Below are positions 21,150-24,040 of a stretch of 49,219 nt of DNA, piece by piece. The stretch is taken from positions 1 to 49,219 of the forward strand of contig CAMEYM010000022.1 of NCBI GenBank assembly GCA_945947575.1. The letters are read 5' to 3'. Positions within the stretch are counted from its first letter, which is position 1. The number at the start of each line of letters is the position of its first letter. The notes beneath the pieces are model-generated. The model was given only the letters and a program-made list of their open reading frames with translations. It did not search any database and was not told the DNA's origin. Both the position numbers and the translations under genes were made by a program. Source of the stretch: Rhizobium sp. Q54. Its GTDB lineage: Bacteria; Pseudomonadota; Alphaproteobacteria; UBA2966; CAIVPW01.

Positions 21150-22310
21150 CTACAGCGGCTGCGCCTGTCCCCCTGAAAGTGTGTGCGTGCAGCCTTGCGC
21201 CTTCGCAGCGGCTCGTGTGTCGCGCTCGCTCTCGAGTCCGGCGCGCGTGCGCCAGCCGGCGGCGTGCAGCTTCCGGCGCTCAGCGGCGTTGCTGCCAAAG
21301 GGCAAGTACAAGAGACGCGCCCGCTCTTGCGGCCCGGCTGCCTGCACCAATTGCTCCATGAACAGGGTGGCGCCCGTCGCCGGCTCGCCGTTGCCCAGCA
21401 CGTAGCGCCCGCCGCGGCCGAGCTCGCCGGCGACGCCCTTGGCAAAGACCGTAAAGCTGATGCCCGTCTGATATTCGAGGCCGCGGAACTCGACCGGGTC
21501 GATGGTCATGGCGAGGCCCGGTACCTGCTCGCGTACCAGGCGCACCGCTTCGCCGAGGTCGCGCACGTGCTGCTTGGCCACCGGTGGCAGCGACAGCTTG
21601 CCCAGCGCCGCGAGCGCCGCGTCCGCCGTGCCGGTGGCGCGCTGCAGGGTGCTGAACGTCAATCGACGCTCCTCGGTCAGGGCCGTCAGCGCCTGCAGGG
21701 CGCCGGCGTCCTTGCGGTCGAGCGCCGCGCGCAGGCTCGCCGTAGTGGCGGCATCTAGCTCCATGCCTGCGCACATCAGCGGCACTAGGCGCGGCAGCGA
21801 CAGATCGAACGACGGTTGCGCGACGCCGATCGCCGCCAGCGCCTCGGCGACCGCGACCATGACCTCGGCATCGGCAGCAAGCGTCGGCGCGCCGATCAGC
21901 TCGATGCCGACCTGAGTCACTTCGCGCTCGGGACGCAGCTGGCTGCCCTTCAGCTGCAGCACGGGCCCCGCGTACGACAGCCGCAACGGGCGCGGTGCCT
22001 TGGCCAGACGGGTCGTGGCAATGCGGGCAATCTGCGGCGTGATGTCGGGACGCAGTCCCATCATGCGCTGGCTGACCGGGTCCATCAGGCGGAACATGTT
22101 CGGCGCCACGGCGCCGCCCGGTCCGTCGGTCAGGGTTTCCTCGAACTCGGCGAGGGGCGGCTTGACCCGCTCGTAGCCGAACGCCGCGAAGGTAGCCACC
22201 AGGCGCGATTCCATGTCCGCCTCGATGGCGGCATCCGGCATCAGCGTGTCGTTGAGGCCGTTGGGCAGCAGCGCTTTTTGCGCGCCGGGGAGAGGGGGCT
22301 CCGTGCTCAT
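21150..22310 (-). CDS. hisZ: ATP phosphoribosyltransferase regulatory subunit HisZ
   Basis: A 386-aa HisRS-like paralogue without an anticodon-binding domain. It has class II tRNA-synthetase core motifs ([20 protein letters not shown] motif 2 region near 80-100) and [10 protein letters not shown] near the C-terminus. It forms the allosteric subunit of short-form HisG in histidine synthesis; hisG is not in this window. ATG at 22310 (MSTEPPLPG) is used. The frame is open for 124 further codons upstream, but that stretch is leader-like and lacks a credible start. Some 60 C-terminal residues look divergent. Confidence 0.92.
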
Positions 22311-22687
22311 GGCTGCAGTTCGTTCCGAAGACTCTTCGTTGCCGGACGGACGCCGCACCACCGCGTATTGGCTCGCGTATCGCTCGCGTACATTTGCGTA
22401 CTCTTTGCGCGGCGCGCCATGCGTCCGTCCGTGCCTAAGTGGTTGTGCGCCCGCCCAAATCGGCGCGCCCGCACGTGTCGCGCCGCCGCGCGTCGCTTTC
22501 GCGGGCGCCCTGCATAGCACTTTCCACCGCCAAATACGGCTAAGTACGGCGGCACATCCGAGCACTGCGGGGCGTGGGAGCACGGGGGCACAAGCGCCCG
22601 CAGGCATGCCTTCGCGCACCAGGGCGACCGCCCACGCCGCTGCGAGACGTGTCCCGGATTTGTGTTGACCTGTGCCATTCACCGGAC
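22311..22687 (-). promoter_or_regulatory. Long structured 5' leader of hisZ-purA
   Basis: About 370 nt separate the promoter from the hisZ start. No gene is recognised here on either strand. The leader contains an 11-bp inverted repeat (22343-22353 with 22421-22431) that would close a 67-nt loop. The loop holds four near-repeats of GCGTA spaced 10-12 bp. An in-frame, stop-free extension of hisZ covers it, but its composition is Arg/Ala-rich and unlike HisZ. It may be a regulatory leader; no known riboswitch class was recognised. Confidence 0.4.
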
Positions 22688-22716
22688 ATGATACCGCATG
22701 TATACATTCGTGTCAA
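22688..22716 (-). promoter_or_regulatory. Strong sigma70 promoter for hisZ-purA
   Basis: On the minus strand, a perfect TTGACA (-35, 22716-22711), a 17-bp spacer and TATCAT (-10, 22693-22688). The region is AT-rich compared with its surroundings and points to hisZ. Confidence 0.65.
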
Positions 22717-22732
22717 TACGTAATGTAATGCA

Positions 22733-22943
22733 GTGGCAGAGCAGGTATTCTTAACGAGCCGATCATTGTGGTCGCCGACATCGGCCACGGCGCTGACGAA
22801 GAGCGGCTGTACGCGCTAGGTCGAACGGATGATGGCGGTTGCTGCAGGTTGTCTTCGCACTGCGCGGCCAAGGCAAGTTGGTCAGAGTGATTTCCGCGGC
22901 CTATGCACCGCAAGGAGAAGGCGATCTATGAACAAGAAGCTTG
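22733..22943 (+). pseudogene. Frameshifted BrnT-like (DUF497) toxin remnant
   Basis: Pieces of one BrnT/DUF497-type protein appear consecutively in different frames: VAEQVFL (from 22733), NEPIIVVADIGHGADEERL with YALGRTDDG, then RLLQVVFALRGQGKLVRVISA, then PMHRKEKAIYEQEA ending near 22943. Joined, they give the typical BrnT C-terminal two-thirds (EERLYALGRT, VVFALR, RVISARxMHRKE). At least three frameshifts separate them and the N-terminus is missing, so the toxin cannot be made. The toxin end overlaps the antitoxin start, which is the normal brnT-brnA order. Confidence 0.7.
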
Positions 22944-23197
22944 GGCCCGTGCCGAAGTTCCGCAACAAGGCCGAGGAGCGCCGCTTCTGGGAGACCCACT
23001 CATCGTCGGACAGAGATTCCGACACTAACTCCCCCAACCTTCGGGTACTACGCGAGCAGGAACGCCGTCACCAAGCCGACGGCGATCCACTGCACCGCGG
23101 CGAAGGCGGTTTCGAGAGCCGCGAAATCTCGGATTTCCAGCTTGAAGCCGCGAGACGCTGCCCTGGTACCCGGCGTGCAGTATCATGCCCAGCATGA
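22928..23197 (+). pseudogene. Truncated CopG-like antitoxin (BrnA-type partner)
   Basis: ATG at 22928 has a good ribosome site (AAGGAGAAG). The first 28 residues (KLGPVPKFRNKAEERRFWETHSSSD) match the N-terminus of CopG-type antitoxins paired with BrnT. After about 23011 the similarity stops: the frame continues to 23197 with unrelated Arg/Glu-rich sequence, and the ribbon-helix-helix part is absent. The homologous part therefore covers about 22928-23011. It could still be translated, but it would lack the DNA-binding domain. Confidence 0.65.
23048..23182 (-). pseudogene. Antisense tail of a small membrane protein
   Basis: A 44-codon open stretch on the minus strand between two stops, without ATG or a suitable ribosome site. 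It ends FKLEIRDFAALETAF then AAVQWIAVGLVTAFLLA, a convincing membrane helix followed by a stop. It lies antisense to the non-homologous tail of the broken antitoxin. I take it as the 3' fragment of a lost gene; chance cannot be excluded. Confidence 0.3.
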
Positions 23198-24006
23198 TCC
23201 GAGCGCACTTGCTGGGGCTGACCGTTGCCGCGTTCGTTGCCGGGGCAGCGGGGGCGGGTCCATTGGAGGATGCGCAGGCTGCCTACGAGCGTAAAGATTT
23301 CGCCACGGCGCAAAGGCTCTGGAGCCCACTGGCTGAACAGGGCGTGGCCGACGCGGAGTTCGGATTGGGGCGCTTGTTCCTATTCGGCAACGGCGTGATC
23401 CAGGATGGAGCCCAGGCAGTCTCGTGGTTGAGCAGGGCGGCCGCTAACGGCAGAACGAACGTAGGCTGGCTGCTTGGGCAGATATACGACGGCGACCTGG
23501 ATGTGCTTGGCCTGAACGTCGTGCCGGACTCGGCGGAGGCGGTGCGCTGGTATCGAGTCGCAGCCGAAGGCGGCTTTATGGCAGCCTGGCAACAGCTCGC
23601 CGAGCATTACGCTGAGGGGCGCGGCGTCGCCCAGGATTTCGCGGAAGCGATCAAGTGGTACCGCAAGCTCGCGGACGAAGGCGACATATTCGCCCAAAGC
23701 CAAATCGGCGAATTCTATCGAGTTGGCCGCGGCGTGCCCCAAGACTACGCGGAAGCGGCGAGGTGGTTCGGCGAGGCGGGAAATGGGGGTTACGCCTACG
23801 CGCAGTATCAGATGGGACTTCTTTACCGCGATGGTCGCGGCGTGCGCGGCGATGTCGTCGAAGCCTACAAGTGGCTTGCCTTAGCATCTGGCGCCGCTGC
23901 CCCGTTCCCCGGAGCTGAAGCCGAGCGCACCCTCCTCGCCGTCAAGATGACCGCTGCCCAAATCGCCGAGGCGCAGCGATTGGCTAACGCGTGGAAGCCG
24001 AAGTAG
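23185..24006 (+). CDS. Secreted Sel1-repeat protein (273 aa)
   Basis: A Sec signal peptide (ending GAAGAGPLED) precedes about five Sel1-like repeats, among them AEFGLGRLFLFGNGVIQDGAQAVSWLSRAA-type units, AEHYAEGRGVAQDFAEAIKWY, GEFYRVGRGVPQDYAEAARWF and GLLYRDGRGVRGDVVEAYKW. Sel1 solenoids bind proteins, and periplasmic ones are common in Proteobacteria. Two in-frame ATGs (23185 and 23194) are possible and neither has a clear ribosome site. It lies between the TA remnant and serA, converging on serA. Confidence 0.88.
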   Translation: MPSMIRAHLLGLTVAAFVAGAAGAGPLEDAQAAYERKDFATAQRLWSPLAEQGVADAEFGLGRLFLFGNGVIQDGAQAVSWLSRAAANGRTNVGWLLGQIYDGDLDVLGLNVVPDSAEAVRWYRVAAEGGFMAAWQQLAEHYAEGRGVAQDFAEAIKWYRKLADEGDIFAQSQIGEFYRVGRGVPQDYAEAARWFGEAGNGGYAYAQYQMGLLYRDGRGVRGDVVEAYKWLALASGAAAPFPGAEAERTLLAVKMTAAQIAEAQRLANAWKPK

Positions 24007-24040
24007 CCGGCCCATCGGTGACGCCAACGCATCCTGACCC

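Follow-up and report, generated by a model that had tools for sequence, protein, structure and literature searches.

What separates serA from hisZ in Rhizobium sp. Q54, and from which promoter are hisZ and purA now likely to be read? We examined a 49,219-nucleotide contig (the window, meaning the whole of this stretch), in which the initial annotation had placed a decayed BrnT/CopG-type toxin–antitoxin module between the two genes. In six of seven relatives, serA adjoined hisZ with a short, near-empty spacer of about 75–150 bp. Related genomes were also said to keep serC–serA and hisZ–purA commonly adjacent, and in the genomes compared serC, serA and hisZ formed one run on one strand in five genomes (G001, G002, G004, G006 and G007), serA and hisZ did so in G005 (serC lying outside the stretch read), and purA followed hisZ wherever the retrieved stretch extended to it.

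In the window, by contrast with G001 and G002, blastn homology to these two genomes ended at 22274, inside the 5′ end of hisZ, and restarted at 24040/24041, at the serA stop, delimiting a composite insert at 22275–24040. This insert, of about 1.77 kb, consisted of a promoter-like segment of about 450 bp, a brnTA remnant, about 155 bases without assignment and an intact Sel1-repeat gene. The earlier proposal of a decayed insertion therefore stands as regards the short serA–hisZ gap in six relatives, but the insert is larger than the toxin–antitoxin module. A foreign or translocated block would have replaced the short spacer of a conserved serC–serA–hisZ–purA run, after this species split from the closest relative compared (G002), and brnTA would have been carried in that block.

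Homology searches confirmed that 22730–23014 is a decayed brnT–brnA (DUF497/CopG-antitoxin) module. The intact brnTA of congener G001 (contig 75) aligned with 22730–23005 at 69% DNA identity over 276 bases (blastn, E 3.9e-24). We made HMMs from intact relatives (56 toxins and 53 antitoxins) and ran them against every stop-to-stop frame in the 49-kb window, a frameshift-tolerant search in which both families were matched. The brnT HMM found profile positions 36–67, 65–86 and 86–99 of 100, in consecutive order, in three different plus-strand frames of 22729–23025; these three best matches in the whole window (E 4e-7, 1.1e-4 and 0.007; next best 0.92) were the very pieces that the initial annotation had read as one BrnT-like toxin lying in different frames. 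The brnA HMM had a sole good match in the window, to residues 1–29 of 88 (E 1.3e-7; next 2.4). Among Pfam models, the middle toxin piece matched PF04365 BrnT (profile 54–76, E 0.07 in a search of all 24,736 models) and the antitoxin start matched PF12441 CopG_antitoxin (profile 2–26, E 4.9e-4), while the outer two toxin pieces, searched separately, had no Pfam match. That both matches fell below the curated cut-offs is as expected because the pieces are fragments.

The brnT remnant (22730–22938, plus strand) is followed by the brnA remnant (22928–23014, plus strand), whose ribosome site AAGGAG is kept at 22912–22917 and whose ATG (22928–22930), on the same strand, falls within the 3′ end of the toxin remnant, the place of the antitoxin start in intact modules. 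Gene order, a toxin end that overlaps the start of the antitoxin, and the ribosome site are common to the remnant and the G001 module (L041:1124–1676; PF04365 toxin of 100 aa and PF12441-type antitoxin of 88 aa, the latter starting within the toxin end). The G001 copy, however, is unbroken, has an operator ahead of the toxin and sits at another genome location. A nucleotide tree placed the remnant and the G001 module together as sisters (support 0.987), each on a long branch. A genome-wide profile search found no other BrnT above cut-off. The remnant had no match among phage sequences, and weak matches among plasmids were to records from Rhizobium and Ciceribacter, with BrnT annotated in three of the four.

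The type II system BrnTA has been well described (PMC11980606; PMC10714953). In Brucella abortus, as these two sources report with reference to Heaton et al. 2012, BrnT acts as an RNase, and autoregulation by BrnA depends on its C-terminal ribbon-helix-helix (RHH) domain. The window remnant has the same toxin family and module layout as the Brucella pair but differs in that both genes are broken, the RHH part is missing and the antitoxin matches PF12441.

On the other side of the module lies hisZ (21150–22310, minus strand), which is intact but has an N-terminus unlike those of its congeners. In G001–G003, hisZ begins MT(G/A)PTERALLPNG and is preceded by AGGACA or GGGACA-N17-TAGGAT, common to all three; the window has neither, and the original hisZ start is gone. 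Comparison with the congeners shows that the insertion or its aftermath removed both the promoter-like element and the start codon. hisZ is under purifying selection; against G002 it has 100 synonymous and 17 nonsynonymous codon differences.

Facing hisZ and abutting the toxin remnant is a promoter-like element (22687–22728, minus strand) with TTGACA at 22716–22711, a spacer of 17 bases and TATCAT at 22693–22688, overlain by two ACATAATGTATTG-like units. It is the sole site scoring at least 10/12 in the window. A pattern search of the genome's contigs, on which all our genome-wide element counts are based, found TTGACA-N16–18-TATNAT at two sites in 2.49 Mb, one of them facing hisZ, and at none in a reversed control. 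hisZ, then purA, would now be transcribed from this near-consensus, sigma-70-type promoter abutting the truncated toxin, with a predicted leader of about 370 nt. Searches of the leader segment against plasmids, Rfam, Pfam and the family's genomes found no relative; for 22275–22720 as a whole there was no plasmid or Rfam match and no convincing Pfam match, and the family's genomes gave a single 38-base match, in G002.

On these comparisons, the near-consensus element is the most likely candidate for the present drive of hisZ, although another promoter, farther upstream or inside the leader, might serve instead. With considerable confidence, we favour a reading in which a composite insert with a dead brnTA occupies the serA–hisZ spacer, the congener-type hisZ promoter and start have been lost, and hisZ–purA are most likely expressed from the near-consensus promoter.

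Where did this promoter come from? The initial annotation had suggested that the insertion may have supplied or displaced the hisZ promoter, and this holds in so far as the congener element is gone and a strong-looking site faces hisZ; the element is, however, unlike a brnTA operator. Of 56 intact brnTA modules (loci L062–L121), 55 have a strongly conserved inverted repeat, TGTATAT-N7-ATATACA, at 3–10 bases ahead of the toxin start, and it is likely to be the BrnA operator of this subfamily. By profile and local alignment it is absent from the corresponding place here. That the promoter facing hisZ is a mutated brnTA operator-promoter, reused on the opposite strand, seems improbable to us. The element does abut what is left of the toxin, ATGTATACAT is similar to half of an operator site, and the best local alignment, which is to relative L065, lies where an operator would be expected; but 74 of 300 shuffles align equally well, and the operator profile of 55 intact relatives does not pick the element out, the best local site ranking 15th in the window with a score of −2.4 (training minimum 9.9). 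Moreover, an opposite-strand promoter of at least 10/12 occurs in 0 of 56 intact modules, and three other places in the genome have the same kind of element with none showing a brnTA module. Retention of the operator was thus unsupported by either the position matrix or the local alignments against the 56 relatives. In our reading, the promoter was probably replaced, with the toxin–antitoxin module unsupported as its source. Our literature search for promoter exaptation from toxin–antitoxin decay returned nothing pertinent.

The element may instead belong to a family within this genome. Tandem ACATAATGTATTG-like units over the −35 and −10 were found in four related elements, that of the window included; the others, at C5:4706, C16:30159 and C26:10234, differ from TTACATAATGTATTGACACG at three positions or fewer, and in each a further unit of similar sequence covers the −10. 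The other 20 genomes searched held one TTACATAATGTATTGACACG match in total, in G008, and the four congeners held none; the tandem-unit elements themselves were absent from all congeners and family members searched. Two of the four elements had served to define the TTACATAATGTATTGACACG pattern, so that support for the family is moderate because only the other two are independent. Viral contigs scanned for the pattern of the promoter element yielded 16 exact matches, a number that did not exceed a rough chance estimate. One of the four elements precedes a DUF5681-like gene, and one lies about 400–450 bases before a frame that we take to encode elongation factor G. More tentatively, the locus could represent regulatory capture, in which an insertion with a dead toxin–antitoxin module placed hisZ–purA behind a new promoter, strong, perhaps subject to a repressor, and belonging to these four related elements.

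The module itself is dead. Relative to an intact counterpart, the first ~28 codons of the toxin are missing and several small gaps shift its frame; the complete open toxin frame that a functional BrnTA needs is missing, its 5′ part being absent and its pieces lying in three frames. As had been noted at the outset, the antitoxin keeps its N-terminus and ribosome site while its DNA-binding half, equally needed for function, is missing: by HMM, similarity ends after residue 29, ahead of the ribbon-helix-helix part, with no match beyond. The module is recognisable at about 22730–23014, short of 23197, where the stretch first assigned to it (22733–23197) ended, and neither HMM nor alignments found secure similarity to the BrnA C-terminus in 23015–23168. 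When that stretch was considered as a hidden BrnA C-terminus, the mean alignment score was slightly high (5 of 200 shuffles reached it), but the best score was ordinary and the matches were scattered, and we rejected it. A perfect 6-bp inverted repeat, GTCGGACAGAGATTCCGAC, lies at 23006–23028, exactly where BrnA similarity stops. Judging from this anatomy, the module should be incapable of acting as an RNase toxin–antitoxin pair or as an autorepressor, because the toxin is not whole and the DNA-binding half of the antitoxin is gone.

As the genome is a draft in 40 contigs, the frame breaks could in principle be assembly or sequencing errors in a really intact brnTA; we consider this very improbable because there are several separate gaps, with losses at both ends (~28 toxin-start codons and the C-terminal two thirds of the antitoxin) all within 300 bases, and the adjoining purA, hisZ, serA and sel1 frames are unbroken. 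It is just as hard to believe that the antitoxin fragment is still produced and serves anti-addiction by guarding the cell against BrnT toxins that enter it, for although the ribosome site and 29 N-terminal residues are kept in a frame open for 89 codons, the C-terminal portion (about two thirds) is unrelated to BrnA, an open frame this long is not improbable in G+C-rich DNA, and there is no convincing plus-strand promoter (best 9/12).

The remaining part of the insert is the intact Sel1-repeat gene (23185–24006, plus strand; 273 aa; PF08238, E 6e-30). In G002, the closest relative (hisZ 95% identical), an 81% identical Sel1 gene is found elsewhere, at L043:5802–6635, behind a gene that we take, from reading it, to be DUF1028-like. 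The counterpart of that neighbour (93% identical) is on contig 7 of the present genome, where the ~3.9 kb retrieved downstream of it contained no Sel1 gene, so the position of the Sel1 gene differs between the two species. The Sel1 gene changes faster than hisZ, with 51 of 106 differing codons nonsynonymous.

A different insert was seen in G003, the serA–hisZ spacer of which (L044:8186–8854) is about 690 bp long and contains a glyoxalase-family gene, the hisZ promoter-like element being kept. As this insert and that of the window differ, insertion into this spacer has occurred at least twice within the genus.

Decayed toxin–antitoxin modules are common, and the brnTA remnant, as an ordinary decayed pair, adds little alone. 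If the promoter reading is true, however, the locus would show, at the level of a species, how a small insertion rewired biosynthesis genes, and close relatives keep the unaltered arrangement with which it can be compared.
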